IMG/VR virus record: IMGVR_UViG_3300022074_000331
Coordinates: 1 to 26,165 of that record
Direction: 5' to 3' (one strand)
Origin: a virus
Length of the DNA: 26,165 nt
Shown: positions 7,673 to 24,094 of the stretch, piece by piece
Layout of the letters: every line of letters starts with the position of its first letter
Position numbering within the stretch: the first letter of the stretch is position 1
Notes under the pieces: model-generated
The model's input: the letters and a program-made list of their open reading frames with translations, nothing else
Told to the model about the DNA's origin: nothing
Database searches by the model: none
Program-made: the position numbers and the translations under genes

Positions 7673-7972
7673 TCATCTGCTCTCTAATCTATCTATCAGT
7701 CTTGTTAAATACCACTGAGCCTTTTTAAGATCTTCAGTACCACCCTTATGTCTCCATCTATGGACATACTTCTTAATGTTTCCCTCTACATAAAAAGCAA
7801 ATCCTTCTTTGCCTAAACTATCTTCTAGATAATCTATGCATTCAATCTCCCCCTCTTTATAGTGAGGGGGATGATTTACCATTTCAGTTTTAACTTCGGC
7901 TTCCTTTGCTCTTCTTCTCATGTAGTCATGATGACTCTCAAAAGGAAACTCTAGTTGCTCTTCATCAGACAC
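7673..7972 (-). CDS. DUF3310-like protein (phage nucleotide-metabolism accessory)
   Basis: About 99 residues. The C-terminal 65 residues carry the DUF3310 pattern: VNHPPHYKEGEIECIDYLED, FYVEGNIKKYVHRWRHKGGT and EDLKKAQWYLTRLIDRL. Proteins with this domain are frequent beside phage DNA-synthesis genes; a link to nucleotide kinases has been proposed but is not proven. The start is uncertain: GTG at 7972 has a strong GGAGG eight bases upstream, ATG at 7990 and ATG at 8032 are alternatives. The start overlaps the end of the RNR gene, so translation is coupled to it. Confidence 0.8.
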   Translation of the reverse strand: MSDEEQLEFPFESHHDYMRRRAKEAEVKTEMVNHPPHYKEGEIECIDYLEDSLGKEGFAFYVEGNIKKYVHRWRHKGGTEDLKKAQWYLTRLIDRLESR

Positions 7973-9659
7973 CGCATGAACCTCCATGTCCTGTGATGTC
8001 GCATATGTCGTGTGTTTCAAGTGACTCTTCAAATTCCTCTCCTAAGTTTTTACGAGCTTCTTTATATGGAACAGAAATAAGAGGTTGACCTCCTCTACTT
8101 CCGTCAGGGTAACAGGTGAAACCTCTCAGACGATGAGCATACTTCGCTAATGTCTGGGCAAAAGGTTTGACTGTGTCTTCATTATTTAACTCAGATCCCC
8201 AAGCAGGTAAGTTGATGGTACTAGATATGGACATATCAACGTAGTCTTGCACATCTGCTTGAAACTCCATTCTTCTCTCATACGCACTAGACAGATCAAG
8301 AGCACTCTCTATTGTGTCTGGGTCTGTGCCATAACGATCAATCACTTCTTGGGCTGCACTATCAACGACCATCTGATACATCCATTTCTTTCCGTCTTTG
8401 AGATATCTTCTCTTATATGCAACGGCAAATAATGGCTCTACACCTGTAGTTGTAGAAGCCAAGATTCCAATTGAACCTGTTGGTGCAATCGCTCTTACCT
8501 TTACAGGTCTACTAATACCTAGAGCATCTGCACTTTGTTTAGCTACTTTATCTGATACTGACTTGTAGATGTATAACCAACGATGCATCTCGTCTGTTAC
8601 TTTATATGGTTGCTTTCTTTGTAGTAACCATTCATGCATACCCATAAGACCTAGTCCAAGTCTTCTATTCTTTTCACGGACTTTGTAAACTCTGTCATAA
8701 GGCAGTTCTGCTTTCACTGTACCACAGACTAAAAACTTTGTAGCCAGTTCAGTGCACTGAGCAAAGTCTTTAATGTCTTCTATTCTAGACATGTTAAGTG
8801 AACCAAGATTACAGACATCACTATCGTCTTCTGATGTCACTTCAGTACATGCGTTCCTGAGTGTTTCGTTTTCATTCTCAAAAAAGTTAAATGAAAATCC
8901 AGGTTCTGCTGAAGATAAAGCCTGTTTAGTATTCTTATACCAAAGCTCTGGTAGTTCGCCTGTCTTCCAATAGTCTTCTATAAATTTAGTATCCCAATTG
9001 AGTGAGATGTTTGTCATGTCTAGTGGACAGGCAAAATTAAAGTCTGCTTCTTTTAAGTCTGCCATTGTCTTGTCTGTTCCTGCGACAGGCATACTCTTCC
9101 AATCTTTAGCATGTAAGAATGCTTCAGCATCTGCATGTTGCCAATTCAATGAGGCATAAATAGCAGAACGTCTGCTACCACCTTGCATAACTTGTCTACC
9201 TATTTCATTAACGGCTAACATAAGACTGATAGGACCACTAGCTTCCCCACCTGTTCTTGATAACAAAGAACCTTTGGCACGAAACTTAGAATAATCTATA
9301 CCAATACCACCACCACTTGAGAGACAGGACATTGCTCTATTTGCTAGGTTACCCCACTCTTCTCTTGTGTCTTCTTCGCCTCTTAGTAAATAACAGTTGT
9401 TAAAGAACTTAGCTTTTCTTCCTGCATAATATAAGTATCTACCCCCAGGGATAAATCTCATTGTACTGATCATAAATTTTAATTGATTAATGTCAGACTG
9501 TGGTAACAAACCACCACATACATCTTCTACTAATGTGTTAGACAATTCATCCCATGTCTCAGCACCCTCATGTTTATACTTTAAATTAAATATACTCTCA
9601 GCAAAACTGTTACGAAAAATATTCTGGTTATCGGTATACATCTTCTTCATTTCATTCAT
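7965..9659 (-). CDS. nrdJ: Class II (adenosylcobalamin-dependent) ribonucleotide reductase
   Basis: A 564-residue single-chain ribonucleotide reductase that converts ribonucleotides into deoxyribonucleotides for phage DNA synthesis. Visible residues: Cys89 (KFFNNCYLLRG) and Cys283 (DVCNLGSLNMSR) as the redox pair, Cys271 and Glu273 in NACTE as the radical Cys and its acid partner (N-x-C-x-E), the 'SSGGGIGIDYSKFRAKGS' and 'APTGSIGILASTTTGVEP' blocks, and a C-terminal Cys pair (553 and 562). No small subunit gene (NrdB) or glycyl-radical motif is present in the window, which agrees with class II. The start at 9659 is preferred because AGGA lies eight bases upstream and it begins just after the PolA stop; longer versions would run into PolA. 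The Cys of the thiyl motif sits in NACTE where NPCGE is more usual. Confidence 0.92.
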   Translation of the reverse strand: MNEMKKMYTDNQNIFRNSFAESIFNLKYKHEGAETWDELSNTLVEDVCGGLLPQSDINQLKFMISTMRFIPGGRYLYYAGRKAKFFNNCYLLRGEEDTREEWGNLANRAMSCLSSGGGIGIDYSKFRAKGSLLSRTGGEASGPISLMLAVNEIGRQVMQGGSRRSAIYASLNWQHADAEAFLHAKDWKSMPVAGTDKTMADLKEADFNFACPLDMTNISLNWDTKFIEDYWKTGELPELWYKNTKQALSSAEPGFSFNFFENENETLRNACTEVTSEDDSDVCNLGSLNMSRIEDIKDFAQCTELATKFLVCGTVKAELPYDRVYKVREKNRRLGLGLMGMHEWLLQRKQPYKVTDEMHRWLYIYKSVSDKVAKQSADALGISRPVKVRAIAPTGSIGILASTTTGVEPLFAVAYKRRYLKDGKKWMYQMVVDSAAQEVIDRYGTDPDTIESALDLSSAYERRMEFQADVQDYVDMSISSTINLPAWGSELNNEDTVKPFAQTLAKYAHRLRGFTCYPDGSRGGQPLISVPYKEARKNLGEEFEESLETHDICDITGHGGSCGV

Positions 9660-9672
9660 AATTATTCCTATC

Positions 9673-11814
9673 TTATTTTGCCTCGCCCCAAGTCTTGCCA
9701 ATACCGCCTTCAACAAGTCCTGTTTGAGGTATGTTTTCAAACAATTTAGTAGCCGACCAGATCATGGTCTTGATCATTATGTCTTTCGCTTGGGTGGCAA
9801 ACTCGTCTGGAACTTCTGCTATTAGTTCATCGTGTACAACGTGTACTAATTTTGCAGGTATATTGCCCCAGATTTTGGGAAACCTACTCAAACACAACAA
9901 CATTATTTCTGCGGCTCCGCCTTGACATGGGGTATTAATTGACTTCGTGAACAATTGATTTGATCTTAAAGGAGCATAAACCCTACCCTGTGGTGTCCAT
10001 AAATAACCTGTGTTGTCTGATAGTTTTCTTGTTTGTGTGATCCACTCCTTTAGTCCAACATAAAGATCCAGAACCTCGTGCTGAATCCTACTCGCTTCAT
10101 GTAACGTGGTTGGGTGCCCATTAGTTGTCAGCACTTGTGACAATCCTCTAGGTCCCTGACCAAATAAAAGTCCAAAAATACAAGCCTTTGCCGCTTGTCT
10201 CATCCACTTACCAGACCCTGTTTTAAAGTGATCATCATTGCAATCAGCGGGATAGTCCCCTTTGAAACAATGTCTTGCGGTTAGTGTGTGGATGTCTAGA
10301 CCGTCTTCAATGGCTCCCAACAGAACTTTATCGTTTGACAAAGCAGCGGGAACACGAACTTCTATTTGACCATAATCACAGACCACCAGACTATGGCGGT
10401 CTTTACTTTTAAATAGATGTCTGAATTCTTCAGTTGCATTTATAGTTTGTAATGCAGGTTCTGTGACACTAAACCTGCCTGTCTCTGTGCCACCAATTCT
10501 AAAGTTTGCATGAATCCTTTCAGACATTGGATTTATAAACCTGTTAAAGTCTGTACCCAATGTTGAATTGTTTTTCTTAGCATCTGCCCACTCAGCAATC
10601 GCAAGTAGTGGCGGATGATACTCAGTTGGTAGTTGAGATATATTCTCTAGTAAATCAATCTTACCACATTTAAGTTGACCTGTATCTGTCTTGACCCAAT
10701 TGTCAGTTGTATAAGGTGGGTATTTATTAAGATGAAACCTAATCCAATTTGCAACTTGTATTGTTGAGGCGGGATTATCTACAACAGGGGCACCTTCACT
10801 CGAATGATTTTTAAACATCTCAAGTGCTTTCTGTCTGCCGTCTGTGTCTTTATTATTTAAATCTTCTGCTAAATCCTCATGAGCATTTCTATCAAAGCCA
10901 ATACCATTAACCATAACTTCATTCACGGCTCTGATACTTGACCTTAGTAAATCATATATCCATTCACATTGTTCTCTTGGAATCCTTTTACTTTCTTTTA
11001 TTAACTTCATCTGCTCAAAATGAAGATCCCAAGTAGCAACAACATCTCCTGCCGCATATCTTATTTGTTCATCATCTAATGGATCTTTAGACCAATCAGA
11101 TGCTTGTTGTGTCTTACTTGGTTCTTTACCTAAAACATCTGCACATCTATATGCTAAACCTTTTCTTATTTGTGTAAGACTAACTAATGCTTGTGCCTGT
11201 AACAAAGTACAATGAGGATGCCTTGCGGGTGTGATCCCGTGTTGTGTTAACATCTTCACATCAAATTGTGCATTGTGTGCTAACCATATGACTTTGTCAG
11301 AATTTAAAACTTTGTCTCCAAGTTCTTGTAAGACAGGCATAGACACATGCCATCTATCTATGACGTGGACTTCTTCCCCACTGTAGATTTGGAGCAATCT
11401 AACTTGACCTGTATATACGTTGAGTCCCGCTCTTTTGACGTGCTTGGCTTGAGCATTGAGGTCAGACCTACACTCCGCCATATCTTGTTGGGTTTCCTTG
11501 CGAACTTTCTTTTGATCTTCTGTACATTTAGAGAGGATCGGAAACGAGTGAAATTTCTCAGAGACATCTACAAACTCCTTTTGTTTATCCTCATATATTT
11601 TAATAAGGCTTTGATCAGCAGTTGTTTCAACGTCAACTGAAAGCAGAAGTGGGTTGTCCCAACTATGATTTAAATCAATTAACTTCGCATAATACTTAGT
11701 GAGTTTTTTTACACCTGTATCATCAGTAATAAAATTCAGTTTCACTCCAGACATAAAATCATGGAATGGGGTAGGAGTTTGACCCCCACCCAATACCGAT
11801 TTCATATCATCCAC
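9673..11814 (-). CDS. polA: Family A DNA polymerase with 3'-5' exonuclease
   Basis: A 713-residue replicative polymerase. Exonuclease motifs: Asp61/Glu63 (SVDVETTA), Asp185 (AHNAQFDVK), and Tyr253/Asp257 (YAAGDVVATWD). Polymerase motif A at 480-484 (DYGQIE), motif B Arg539-Lys543-Phe547 (RQAAKACIFGLLFGQG) and motif C at 661-663 (VHDE). There is no N-terminal 5' nuclease domain. Phe547 corresponds to E. coli position 762, the residue linked to polymerase speed and fidelity. An insert of about 65 charged residues splits the first exonuclease motif from the next strand (VRLLQIYSG, near 138). It lies in one leftward operon: its start overlaps the stop of 11814-12485, and the RNR follows 13 bases after its stop. 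Confidence 0.95.
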   Translation of the reverse strand: MDDMKSVLGGGQTPTPFHDFMSGVKLNFITDDTGVKKLTKYYAKLIDLNHSWDNPLLLSVDVETTADQSLIKIYEDKQKEFVDVSEKFHSFPILSKCTEDQKKVRKETQQDMAECRSDLNAQAKHVKRAGLNVYTGQVRLLQIYSGEEVHVIDRWHVSMPVLQELGDKVLNSDKVIWLAHNAQFDVKMLTQHGITPARHPHCTLLQAQALVSLTQIRKGLAYRCADVLGKEPSKTQQASDWSKDPLDDEQIRYAAGDVVATWDLHFEQMKLIKESKRIPREQCEWIYDLLRSSIRAVNEVMVNGIGFDRNAHEDLAEDLNNKDTDGRQKALEMFKNHSSEGAPVVDNPASTIQVANWIRFHLNKYPPYTTDNWVKTDTGQLKCGKIDLLENISQLPTEYHPPLLAIAEWADAKKNNSTLGTDFNRFINPMSERIHANFRIGGTETGRFSVTEPALQTINATEEFRHLFKSKDRHSLVVCDYGQIEVRVPAALSNDKVLLGAIEDGLDIHTLTARHCFKGDYPADCNDDHFKTGSGKWMRQAAKACIFGLLFGQGPRGLSQVLTTNGHPTTLHEASRIQHEVLDLYVGLKEWITQTRKLSDNTGYLWTPQGRVYAPLRSNQLFTKSINTPCQGGAAEIMLLCLSRFPKIWGNIPAKLVHVVHDELIAEVPDEFATQAKDIMIKTMIWSATKLFENIPQTGLVEGGIGKTWGEAK

Positions 11815-12529: not shown

Positions 12530-13606
12530 CTAAGTACGGTAAGTAATCGAAAGACGTGGTGAATAATCTCCTTGAGTTTGGAAATCACGATGGTCCAACC
12601 CCGCCTCTTTGAATTTACTTATATCGTACCTCATTGGTGCCTTTTGTGAGTACATAGACACCGATCCCCAATCAGCAGAAATCTTTTTACTATCTGCCTC
12701 TTTAAGAATTTCTTTAATATCCTGTTCTAATTGTTTTACTTCTCTAGTCTTTGCCTTGGCTTCATTGTTAAGTTTGTGTCTGGCTAAAACTTTCTCGTGT
12801 AATCTTTCTGTAATTGCTGCCGAAAAATTTGATCCCTCGGCACTAGGAATACTAGACACCTCTTTGTCTAGACATAATAATTTAAATGGACAGTAGTCAC
12901 ATTCTTTACCACCTTCTATTTTTCCTTCTGGCTCTGGTAAATTTTCAAGATTATATTTTGTGAATACAGATGTGGCTCTACCTCTTAAACCAAGAGCAAC
13001 CATCTCATCGAATGGGATAACCCATGATTTAATTTGATTTACAAAACTTGCATTTATATATGTGATCACTGCATGTGTTGGAAAATAGTCTGTAGTACGT
13101 CTTACTAGATCCATACCTTGTTGCACTTGCATTCTATGTTGAAACTTAGGTTCTCTTAAATGTTCAAAGGCTCTTGGATCAATTGACTTTAATTCATTGT
13201 ATAAACACTTAGTGTATTTCTTTGTTCCATCTTCTTGCTCTATTTCAAAAACTTCTTTAGCTACAAACAGTCCATCGGGTGTTGCACTTTGATAAGTTGT
13301 TATATCAACTAATGTCTGTTGTCCCTCATCAGTTGCCCATATTAATTCAACGTCACTACCTTTCAGACTTTGTTGCATGGATGGTACTGCCCAATCCTCA
13401 ACCATATTACCACGTTCGGCGGCTCCTAAATCTTGTACAAAGTTACTGTCCTCGGGAGCATTATGTTTATCAAATACAATCGCTCTGATACAACCACCTA
13501 TTGCAGATGCACCGACAGTCTTCTTTCTGTCATGCCCACCCCAGGTTTTAGCATCAGAGTTCTTGCTGATATTATTAAGTATTAAGTTGTTAGTATTTAA
13601 GATCAT
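12530..13606 (-). CDS. PD-(D/E)XK nuclease, Cas4/RecB-like with cluster cysteines
   Basis: A 358-residue protein. The nuclease core is visible as Glu70 (GNMVEDW), Asp111 (SATPDGLF), Glu138-x-Lys140 (YNELKS) and Gln160 (RMQVQQ). One cysteine near the N-terminus (Cys39, SAIGGCIRA) and three near 236-245 (KECDYCPFKLLCLD) match the arrangement of a 4Fe-4S cluster in Cas4 and AddB-type nucleases. The C-terminal 100 residues are a long charged helix (around 270-305) and a short beta region. It probably processes DNA ends in phage recombination or replication. It is transcribed with the downstream DNA polymerase genes, 45 bases apart. Confidence 0.85.
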   Translation of the reverse strand: MILNTNNLILNNISKNSDAKTWGGHDRKKTVGASAIGGCIRAIVFDKHNAPEDSNFVQDLGAAERGNMVEDWAVPSMQQSLKGSDVELIWATDEGQQTLVDITTYQSATPDGLFVAKEVFEIEQEDGTKKYTKCLYNELKSIDPRAFEHLREPKFQHRMQVQQGMDLVRRTTDYFPTHAVITYINASFVNQIKSWVIPFDEMVALGLRGRATSVFTKYNLENLPEPEGKIEGGKECDYCPFKLLCLDKEVSSIPSAEGSNFSAAITERLHEKVLARHKLNNEAKAKTREVKQLEQDIKEILKEADSKKISADWGSVSMYSQKAPMRYDISKFKEAGLDHRDFQTQGDYSPRLSITYRT

Positions 13607-18367: not shown

Positions 18368-18547
18368 ATGCCCCGCCCTAATACAATTGGAGAACCAACA
18401 ACAATCTACAATGCATTATTAAAGAAGACACAATTAGAAAAATTACAATTCATTGCACATCAAGAACGTAAAAAGGGTAAGACACATATATCCGCCGCAA
18501 GTATAATTAGGGATGCCATTGACAAGTGGTTACAAGAGAATGTCTGA
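18368..18547 (+). CDS. Small ribbon-helix-helix-like protein
   Basis: A 59-residue basic protein: MPRPNTIGEPTTIYNALLKK, then TQLEKLQFIAHQERKKGKTH and ISAASIIRDAIDKWLQENV. The order short strand (TTIYNALL), helix, Gly-Lys turn, and helix beginning with S-A-A-S-I-I-R-x-A-I-x-x-W-L is that of an Arc/CopG-type DNA-binding fold, which binds operators as a dimer. The gene begins directly after the helicase stop (TAG ATG) and overlaps the next gene. It could control the primase-helicase operon or plasmid-like copy number. It was found only by reading the gap after the helicase. Confidence 0.6.
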   Translation: MPRPNTIGEPTTIYNALLKKTQLEKLQFIAHQERKKGKTHISAASIIRDAIDKWLQENV

Positions 18548-18809
18548 TCCCGAATACCTAATCGCAAATGGATTCAATGATGCAATCATAGGTATTGGTT
18601 GGCGAATAAATCTAGATGACGTTGTCTGTTATGATTACGACAAGTGTGTAGAGATCCTTATGAAAAATGAAAACATGGAATGGGAAGAAGCAATTGAATG
18701 GATGGACTACAATGTTTGTGGCTCATGGATGGGAGACAAAACCCCTATTTTTATAAGGTGTGATCCCACATTAGATGGAACCATCAAAAAAGAAAAATGT
18801 GAAAATTAA
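18540..18809 (+). CDS. Conserved small phage protein of unknown function
   Basis: An 89-residue acidic protein with YLIANGFNDAIIGIGWRINL, VVCYDYDKCVEILMKNENME, and WEEAIEWMDYNVCGSWMGDK-TPIFI. The pattern 'NGF-DA-IG-G-------V-YDYDKC--ILM---M--EEA-E---YNV-G-W-G--TPIF' occurs in many unrelated phages, always without known function. Here it ends the rightward primase operon. The ATG at 18540 overlaps the upstream stop codon (ATGTCTGA); an earlier in-frame ATG is less likely. Confidence 0.7.
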   Translation: MSDPEYLIANGFNDAIIGIGWRINLDDVVCYDYDKCVEILMKNENMEWEEAIEWMDYNVCGSWMGDKTPIFIRCDPTLDGTIKKEKCEN

Positions 18810-18967
18810 TCTTTTTGATAAGGCTCCACCACCTCGGGTGCATCATCCATACACTCACAAGGTATTGGTTTCCATAACTCGCCTTTGAAAACAAAACCGA
18901 GTCCATCGCAAGTCTCACATTGAATGTCGGTAAACTTTGGATGTTTGTGTGTTTGTATATCTGCCAT
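18806..18967 (-). CDS. Small zinc-binding protein (DnaJ-type CxxCxGxG)
   Basis: A 53-residue protein with CETCDGLGFVF and PCEC, half of a DnaJ-type zinc-binding repeat (CxxCxGxG plus a CxC), enough to bind one zinc ion. ATG at 18967 is chosen because AGGGAG lies six bases before it; an in-frame ATG upstream has no such site. The ribosome binding site itself is buried in the hairpin at 18975-19018. It ends tail to tail with the rightward gene, overlapping by four bases. Function unknown; small zinc proteins of this kind are common in phage early regions. Confidence 0.6.
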   Translation of the reverse strand: MADIQTHKHPKFTDIQCETCDGLGFVFKGELWKPIPCECMDDAPEVVEPYQKD

Positions 18968-18974
18968 AAAAAAA

Positions 18975-19018
18975 CTCCCTGTATTTTTCAATCTGTCTAA
19001 GATCTATAATACAGGGAG
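18975..19018 (-). terminator. Terminator-like hairpin that includes a ribosome binding site
   Basis: CTCCCTGTATT (18975-18985) and AATACAGGGAG (19008-19018) are perfect 11-bp inverted repeats with a 22-base loop. Leftward the stem ends in AGGGAG followed by TTTTTT and then ATG of the 18967 gene. It therefore looks like an intrinsic terminator for the gene at 19103-19690, and at the same time contains the ribosome binding site of the next gene. The loop holds a TTAGACAGATT variant of the shared leader element. Confidence 0.6.
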
Positions 19019-19054
19019 CGACATGGAATACTATGGTGTCTAATTACTCATATT

Positions 19055-19102: not shown

Positions 19103-19690
19103 TTAAGTTTCTTTATGATTAGCATGTGATATATCGCCACTCATCAAGACTTCAAAATTCCTCAAGGCTTGGAAACATCTGCCTGTAGTATTTTTTGAAA
19201 AGGATTTTATATACTTGAGATAATCCGCACATGATTCATATAACTTTTCGTTGCCCATAAAAGTAGTTGTACTGCTTGATCTTTCAACTGTTAACCAACC
19301 CTCGGCTTCACATTCTTTGACAGTCTGACTTATTGTTTTCCTGTCAGCATTCATTTCAGTTGATAATTGGCTGATAGTATATGGAATATTAACCATATAT
19401 GCATAACAAATAAATTTGGCAAATGCATTTCTGAATGGTGTTGAATTAAAGTATCTTTGAATAGGTGTATTCATACGAGACGTTCTTGTTTTATACATCT
19501 CCATCTCAGTCAAAAGAATAGCAAGATTATATTCTCTTTCTAAATGCTCTCTTAAAGAATCTGCTACACCTTTTTGGTCATCAATTTTTTTAACCTTATC
19601 GATGCCTTGGAATTCAAAATCTTTATAGTTTGGATACCTTTGTTTATTGTTAAAATGTAAAACTTTCTTATTATTATTATTATTATTCAT
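19103..19690 (-). CDS. Winged-helix DNA-binding protein (candidate replication initiator or regulator)
   Basis: A 195-residue protein. The N-terminus is a poly-Asn run encoded by six AAT/AAC-type codons, then a basic stretch. A predicted helical region covers 45-85, and a winged helix covers about 87-147: FAKFICYAYMVNIPYTISQL, TEMNADRKTISQTVKECEAE and GWLTVERSSS, with TISQTVKECEAE as the likely recognition helix. The C-terminal 45 residues are helical and basic. AAGGAG lies before the ATG, and a near-consensus promoter stands at 19722-19750. The gene adjoins the TTACTGTCA repeat array, as initiator genes adjoin iterons in plasmids and phages. No Rep family domain is recognised, so a MarR-like regulator is an equal alternative. 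Confidence 0.65.
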   Translation of the reverse strand: MNNNNNNKKVLHFNNKQRYPNYKDFEFQGIDKVKKIDDQKGVADSLREHLEREYNLAILLTEMEMYKTRTSRMNTPIQRYFNSTPFRNAFAKFICYAYMVNIPYTISQLSTEMNADRKTISQTVKECEAEGWLTVERSSSTTTFMGNEKLYESCADYLKYIKSFSKNTTGRCFQALRNFEVLMSGDISHANHKET

Positions 19691-19721: not shown

Positions 19722-19750
19722 ATTATAATCTCCTTTCAATCAATTGACAA
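19722..19750 (-). promoter_or_regulatory. Near-consensus leftward promoter of the winged-helix gene
   Basis: Leftward TTGTCA (19750-19745), exactly 17 bases, then TATAAT (19727-19722). Transcription should start about 19715, at the edge of the TTGACAGATA leader element (19712-19703) that precedes AAGGAG and the ATG at 19690. This is the best sigma-70-like promoter in the window. Confidence 0.7.
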
Positions 19751-19790
19751 TACTTATTTCTGCATATTTTAAATTAATTAACAAGTTATT

Positions 19791-20104
19791 TAATGACAGT
19801 AAGATAATTTTACTGTCATTATTTTTGATTTTACTGTCAGTAAATCAGACTTTGGGGTGGTTTGGTTGAGGTTTTTTCACTTGGAATACTAGATTAATGA
19901 CAGTAAACGGGTTTTTACTGTCATTAATTTGTTTTACTGTCAGTAAAAGCGGGAGAGATAAGTGTCTGTTTTAACGGGATAATTTGGATTTTACTGACAG
20001 TAATGACAGTAAAGTACAGTAAATATATAAACAGGTAGTAATATATAAATATAATTATTAGTTATTAGTTACAGTTTTACTGTACTTTACTGTCATTACT
20101 GTCA
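19791..20104. repeat. Array of TTACTGTCA/TGACAGTAA sites (candidate iterons or operators)
   Basis: The 9-mer TTACTGTCA or its complement occurs ten times exactly: 19794, 19810, 19831, 19898, 19915, 19934, 19995, 20004, 20087 and 20096 (start positions). Some copies are paired into inverted repeats: 12-bp arms at 19791-19802/19810-19821, 15-bp arms at 19893-19907/19914-19928. TTTACTGTCAGTAAA occurs twice (19830-19844 and 19933-19947). Variant TACAGTAAA sites lie at 20015 and 20076 (inverted), and TTACTGACA at about 20267. The 19691-20296 gap has no ORF worth calling. Confidence 0.85.
19995..20104. repeat. Perfect 29-bp inverted repeat around a 52-base AT-rich spacer (candidate origin)
   Basis: Left arm 19995-20023, right arm 20076-20104, each carrying two whole TGACAGTAA sites and one TACAGTAAA variant, exact reverse complements over 29 bases. 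The spacer (20024-20075) is almost only A and T with a single CAGG and ACAG. The structure could extrude as a cruciform or give a very stable RNA hairpin; AT-rich DNA between initiator sites is typical of a DNA-unwinding element. Confidence 0.75.
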
Positions 20105-20296
20105 TGGATTTACAAAGTCTGAAAGTTTGATGTGTATCCATTTGTACCTGCACGGGTGTATTTGTGTAGGAATATAAGTAGTAGACACAGACACAGTAAC
20201 AGACTATGTTGGTGTCTATAGTAATTAATAAAAACTTTTTATGCTGGTTCGCTGCGACACAAATTTTACTGACAACACTTGGAATAGTAGACATAA

Positions 20297-23652: not shown

Positions 23653-24094
23653 TTTCTTTCCTTTCATAAAGTAAATATGATTTTAAGTTTTGTAGAATTG
23701 TATCGATCGCAGATATACTGCGAACACTTGGAATTCTAGACGGTAAATCCTCTTCCAAACTGACAGGTGTACCTGTTGATATGGATAAGGCTCTGATCCT
23801 CATTGAGACTTTTAATCTAAGATAGTCTGAAATACCTTTAGGTATATTTGTTCTACCGTTTAACCAATTTCTTACAACTTGGTCATTGACCTTGAACAAT
23901 CCACAGAGTTCTTTACTGGACATATCCAAAGCTAAAAGACAGACACGCAATTGATCAGACGTAATTGTTGTCTGTGTCTGTCTAATATCTTCAATTGGAA
24001 ATGCTTTGGTGTTACCTGCGTGAGTGGATTTTTTAGAAAATCTTTTCCTTAAAAGTTCATCGGGAACAGATGGAATTTTATTTTCTGTTTCCAT
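23645..24094 (-). CDS. HTH transcriptional regulator, XRE-like
   Basis: A 149-residue protein. Residues 55-107 form an XRE-type helix-turn-helix: SDQLRVCLLALDMSSKELCG, LFKVNDQVVRNWLNGRTNIP and KGISDYLRLKV. The N-terminal 50 residues are polar and basic, and the C-terminal 40 helical. ATG at 24094 has GGTGGAG in front and lies inside the end of the previous gene. Its position in the leftward early operon suggests control of early phage or host genes. It lacks a recognisable protease (LexA-like) domain. Confidence 0.7.
   Translation of the reverse strand: METENKIPSVPDELLRKRFSKKSTHAGNTKAFPIEDIRQTQTTITSDQLRVCLLALDMSSKELCGLFKVNDQVVRNWLNGRTNIPKGISDYLRLKVSMRIRALSISTGTPVSLEEDLPSRIPSVRSISAIDTILQNLKSYLLYERKENE

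Follow-up and report, generated by a model that had tools for sequence, protein, structure and literature searches.

The DNA analysed here, referred to as the window, is the whole of positions 1 to 26,165 of the linear virus record IMGVR_UViG_3300022074_000331. Its minus strand carries, in order, a sigma-70 promoter, a gene for a winged-helix protein, a hairpin and a gene for a cysteine protein of 53 aa, beyond which lie convergent plus-strand genes including those for primase (Table 1). The small protein possesses a DnaJ-type CxxCxGxG half-motif, a CxC and a conserved W, and is probably zinc-binding. No fitting family was identified for it in Pfam or PHROG, and its cysteines are kept even in a distant sister group, where the ortholog shares 35% identity. 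The phages with the hairpin are uncultured and probably marine. The window also encodes a B12-dependent ribonucleotide reductase (7965-9740, minus strand) with 67-70% identity to those of the Roseobacter phages CRP-3 and CRP-212, a likeness which hints at related hosts. Between the winged-helix gene and a RuvC-like gene (19790-20105) there are clustered TTTACTGTCAGTAAA and TAATGACAGTAA palindromes with repeats, iteron-like in arrangement, and repeats of the GATGACGATGA type are present at the matching place in the sister group (L046:500-860).

Table 1. Features at and around the hairpin locus, with the copies of the leader motif in the window.
Feature	Position	Strand	Remarks
Sigma-70 promoter of winged-helix gene, TTGTCA-17-TATAAT	19722..19750	-	p < 0.001
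Leader motif copy TTGACAGA	19712-19705	-	After winged-helix promoter
Winged-helix/MarR-like protein gene	19103..19690	-	Upstream of hairpin
Conserved block TGAGTAATTAGACACCATAGTATTCCATGTCG	19019..19050	-	5' of stem; 84-91% identity to relatives
Stem 5' arm CTCCCTGTATT	19008..19018	-	Pairs with and covers Shine-Dalgarno sequence
Candidate -10 TATTAT	19006..19011	-	TATAAT in L004/L005; 5-6 nt before leader motif
Loop, 22 nt, ATAGATCTTAGACAGATTGAAA	18986..19007	-	Small inner helix and leader motif variant inside
Leader motif variant in loop, TTAGACAGATTGAA	19000-18987	-
Stem 3' arm AATACAGGGAG	18975..18985	-	Shine-Dalgarno sequence (A)GGGAG at 18980-18975
TTTTTTT	18968..18974	-	Directly after stem; terminator U tract and Shine-Dalgarno-to-ATG spacer
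ATG of small gene	18967-18965	-	Directly after seven T
Small cysteine-protein gene, 53 aa	18806..18967	-	CxxCxGxG ... CxC
Convergent gene phrog_13182	18540..18809	+	Function unassigned; 3' end overlaps small-gene end
Leader motif TTGACAGAYTrAA in window	12529-12520, 15737-15728, 19712-19705, 22773-22764, 24908-24899	-	Upstream of several minus-strand genes

The presence of a hairpin between the two genes is confirmed. Its stem has 11 perfect pairs and possibly a further G-U pair, and the RNA folds at -21.1 kcal/mol against a shuffle mean of -6.9 (z -6.5), with none of 200 shuffles as good. When six shuffled windows were scanned for stems of at least 8 pairs before T-rich tails, just one hairpin with a stem of at least 11 pairs and at least 5 G-C was returned. 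Exact occurrences of the 11-mer arm in the window are limited to its two places in the hairpin, and a search of the whole window against Rfam at gathering thresholds gave no match. An earlier note on this DNA had described an 11-bp stem ending in a Shine-Dalgarno sequence, followed by a run of T and then ATG. That layout was borne out, except that the run consists of seven T and not six.

Relatives were reached via the small protein, the DNA pattern and the winged-helix protein. The same note had proposed conservation in relatives as a check, and eight other viral contigs were found to carry the hairpin at the matching place with the matching gene arrangement. The resulting nine contigs hold six distinct versions of the hairpin, and in all of them the Shine-Dalgarno sequence lies inside the 3' arm, with seven T and ATG after it; three of the nine (L015, L016 and L027) have one A inserted between the stem and the seven T. 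The non-coding hairpin segment of approximately 85 nt shows 83-96% identity between the window and its relatives, compared with 56-59% for the winged-helix gene and 70-79% for the small gene. A non-coding segment so much more conserved than the genes on either side is under selection, and this contrast is the strongest argument for it. Variation in the stem amounts to a single compensatory change, from G-C to A-U, and a single G-U, while seven of the 11 pairs are invariant. The compensatory change affects a single pair among closely related contigs, and the stem columns are too nearly invariant for shuffling to inform on covariation. Five further candidate carriers (L007, L008, L013, L014 and L017) were rejected as chance matches without the element.

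Within the viral collection, the conserved block and the hairpin occur together only at this locus of this phage group. Thirty other viral-contig loci matching the block were dismissed as chance, none of them having the stem arms plus the leader motif, and no sequenced bacterial genome was found to contain the leader. The hairpin does not account for the conservation of the 32-nt block upstream of it, which may belong to the upstream portion of a promoter or serve as a regulator site. Two other readings of the block, an sRNA and a second -10 (TATAGT/CATAGT), were discarded, as the resulting RNA would always contain the hairpin.

Intrinsic terminators have a stable stem directly before a U-rich tract, and this is what is found here, with a G-C-rich stem base adjoining seven U. 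The terminator d-score (d'Aubenton Carafa formula) lies between +9 and +20 in four of the six hairpin versions, and is negative where the extra A precedes the T tract (computed for L016 and L027). It is thus likely, on these predicted properties, that RNA polymerase terminates at the U7 of the hairpin. Unlike ordinary intrinsic terminators, the hairpin has a 22-nt loop with an inner helix, and the terminated end would adjoin an ATG and include its Shine-Dalgarno sequence. The U7 and the d-score would suit a plain terminator of the winged-helix gene that shields the convergent primase genes from antisense RNA, the burial of the Shine-Dalgarno sequence being a by-product and the small gene living on leaky read-through, and no minus-strand terminator was detected in the stretch separating the small gene from the primase genes. 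This reading is nevertheless considered unlikely, as the Shine-Dalgarno sequence lies in the stem in every version, even where the A weakens the terminator, the relatives keep the small protein, beginning precisely where the U tract ends, and conservation reaches 32 nt upstream of the stem. Elsewhere in the window, a 17-bp terminator-like hairpin (15825-15789, minus strand) lies directly 5' of the helicase promoter TTGACA-18-TATATA, a position that suits the stopping of antisense RNA from the primase region.

Of the 35 gene starts in the window, none is as deeply buried as that of the small gene: opening its initiation region takes 21.7 kcal/mol, against 13.7 for the next, and one of 300 random sites reaches 19.1. 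Folding predictions for the nine sequences give 14-18 kcal/mol for opening the Shine-Dalgarno sequence in read-through RNA, and with a read-through leader of 150 nt its unpaired probability is 0.0 in all nine; the AUG is also buried in the read-through RNA of most relatives. For an RNA starting at GACAGATT in the loop, the cost of opening falls to only 1.5-8 kcal/mol. The distance from the winged-helix stop codon to the stem is 83 nt in the window and about 32 nt in the relatives, and at such distances a terminating ribosome is not expected to melt the stem. As modelled, read-through RNA is quite likely to be translationally silenced. The positive terminator score together with the buried Shine-Dalgarno sequence means that both termination and hiding of the start are to be expected for RNA arriving from upstream.

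The earlier note had interpreted the hairpin as an attenuator-like switch, in which opening and closing of the stem would control transcription and translation jointly. A reversible attenuator of this type would have a protein or ligand at the loop sequence TTAGACAGATT, or at the leader, opening or stabilising the hairpin. Hiding of the Shine-Dalgarno sequence by a leader hairpin is indeed shared with attenuators and riboswitches that have a sequestor hairpin, for example the translational T-boxes of Actinobacteria (PMC1262725). In addition, the loop holds a variant of a motif common to several phage leaders, and the strong conservation of the 32-nt block upstream goes beyond what the hairpin explains. 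However, no aptamer, leader peptide or anti-sequestor was found, and no competing fold was identified in the 150 nt of upstream leader in any of the nine sequences. Folding with alternative structures, which the note had suggested, left the Shine-Dalgarno sequence closed in all versions. Neither two mutually exclusive folds nor a match to a known RNA family was obtained, and the motif in the loop is also found in leaders that have no hairpin. With no alternative fold or ligand, the reversible switch is unsupported and this explanation is improbable, marginally more so than the plain terminator. What stands of the earlier proposal is a single conserved hairpin that is terminator-like and sequesters the Shine-Dalgarno sequence, without the reversible opening and closing. 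The loop sequence TTAGACAGATT, which it named as a possible binding site, is indeed a variant of a shared leader motif; since that motif also occurs in hairpin-free leaders, it is not a ligand site reserved for the hairpin.

Phages such as T7 have processing hairpins between genes. By analogy, RNase III or another nuclease might cut the stem to give a product with a free Shine-Dalgarno sequence that is then translated, and the extended hairpin with its inner helix would be compatible with this. A stem of 11-12 pairs is, however, short for RNase III and the adjoining U7 is typical of terminators, which makes processing the least probable of the explanations considered.

The leader motif is real and recurrent. 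Across eight records, 42 of 44 copies of TTGACAGAYT share one strand and most precede a start codon, and the longer form TTGACAGAYTrAA often precedes ACACACAAACAAAC and a Shine-Dalgarno sequence. The loose pattern TTAGACAGATT, on the other hand, has 17 matches in the window against 16 expected, which is chance level. Two leaders, those of the helicase and winged-helix genes, have a convincing sigma-70 promoter whose predicted RNA start falls at the motif. No sigma-70-like promoter was found in four of the seven leader groups, all of which have the motif; the motif alone does not therefore mark a transcription start, and its interpretation as a plain sigma-70 start marker was rejected.

Every version of the hairpin has TATWAT, within the upper stem and loop, at a fixed place before T(T/A)GACAGATTGAA (for the -10 alone, p 0.01-0.08). 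No match to a -35 box was detected upstream of this candidate -10, and the bipartite p is 0.19-0.50. With only a -10 in the hairpin, and with four motif groups without a promoter, a start inside the loop is plausible, and the chance that the productive transcript does begin there is put at a little below even. A T7-like promoter reading of CACTATAG was rejected, as this sequence is present in only some versions (CACCATAG takes its place in the window), the spacing is not the same and a polymerase was not detected. A search for phage single-subunit RNA polymerase (PF00940) gave no match in the eight records, which are possibly fragments, and the control search was equally silent.

A hairpin in long upstream transcripts that sequesters the Shine-Dalgarno sequence is known for T4 gene e (lysozyme), soc, 49 and I-TevI, and for Aeh1 mobE (PMC3014915, PMC2988022). 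For T4 e and I-TevI, it has been shown that a promoter whose late transcripts lack the 5' arm frees the Shine-Dalgarno sequence (PMC3014915, PMC2988022). Like T4 gene e, the locus described here has a hairpin that, by predicted folding, hides the Shine-Dalgarno sequence in upstream-initiated RNA, together with the AUG in most relatives. It differs from T4 gene e in having U7 after the stem, so that the hairpin is also terminator-like, and in that the candidate inner promoter is not a T4 late promoter and is without a clear -35; the phages themselves are not T4-like by the genes seen.

Given the -10-like hexamer and the leader motif TTGACAGAYT in the loop, an arrangement of the T4 gene e type is the best reading. 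The hairpin most likely acts both as a terminator and as a lock on translation, with an internal start as its probable bypass, and the conserved non-coding element as a whole is best explained as an insulator and lock with such a bypass (probability approximately 0.55). RNA from the winged-helix promoter would fold the hairpin and polymerase would stop in U7 just before the ATG of the small gene, while any RNA reading through would keep the Shine-Dalgarno sequence of that gene buried. The small protein would then be made only from RNA without the 5' arm, which would most likely begin inside the loop near TATWAT-N5/6-T(T/A)GACAGATTGAA, and the conserved block AATTARACACYATAGTATTCCATGTCG would either form the upstream portion of the loop promoter or be a regulator site. 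Transcripts with a start in the loop would need no switch to escape the hairpin. If this is true, the start-hiding device of T4, with a promoter inside the hairpin, is also used by unrelated uncultured phages, where it has merged with a terminator. The TTGACAGAYT leader motif and the upstream block may define regulation in this phage group.

The distant sister group with the matching gene order comprises L046, a marine MAG contig, and L087-L090. In these, the two genes overlap, the small gene beginning 31 nt before the winged-helix frame ends; there is no hairpin, and a terminator follows the small gene. Other winged-helix relatives have no small gene after the winged-helix gene. The overlapping, hairpin-free gene pair of the sister group suggests that presence of the hairpin is linked to a shift, in one direction or the other, between coupled and separate expression. 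A more specific and tentative proposal is that the element of approximately 85 nt unites a terminator, a translational lock and an activator-dependent phage promoter in the loop, with the ATAGTATTCCATGTCG block as a site for a phage regulator, and that its origin lies in the splitting of an ancestral overlapping gene pair, kept in the sister group, into two separately timed units. The sister group offers a natural comparison for the way in which a phage comes to express two adjacent genes separately.

A further motif, TAGTATTCCAAGTG, is present four to six times per record, nearly always on one strand and in coding and intergenic DNA alike. Its copies in the window lie at 12841-12854, 19878-19891, 20276-20289 and 23725-23738 (minus strand), with a copy with two mismatches at 19020-19033, and a variant of it forms part of the conserved block that precedes the hairpin.
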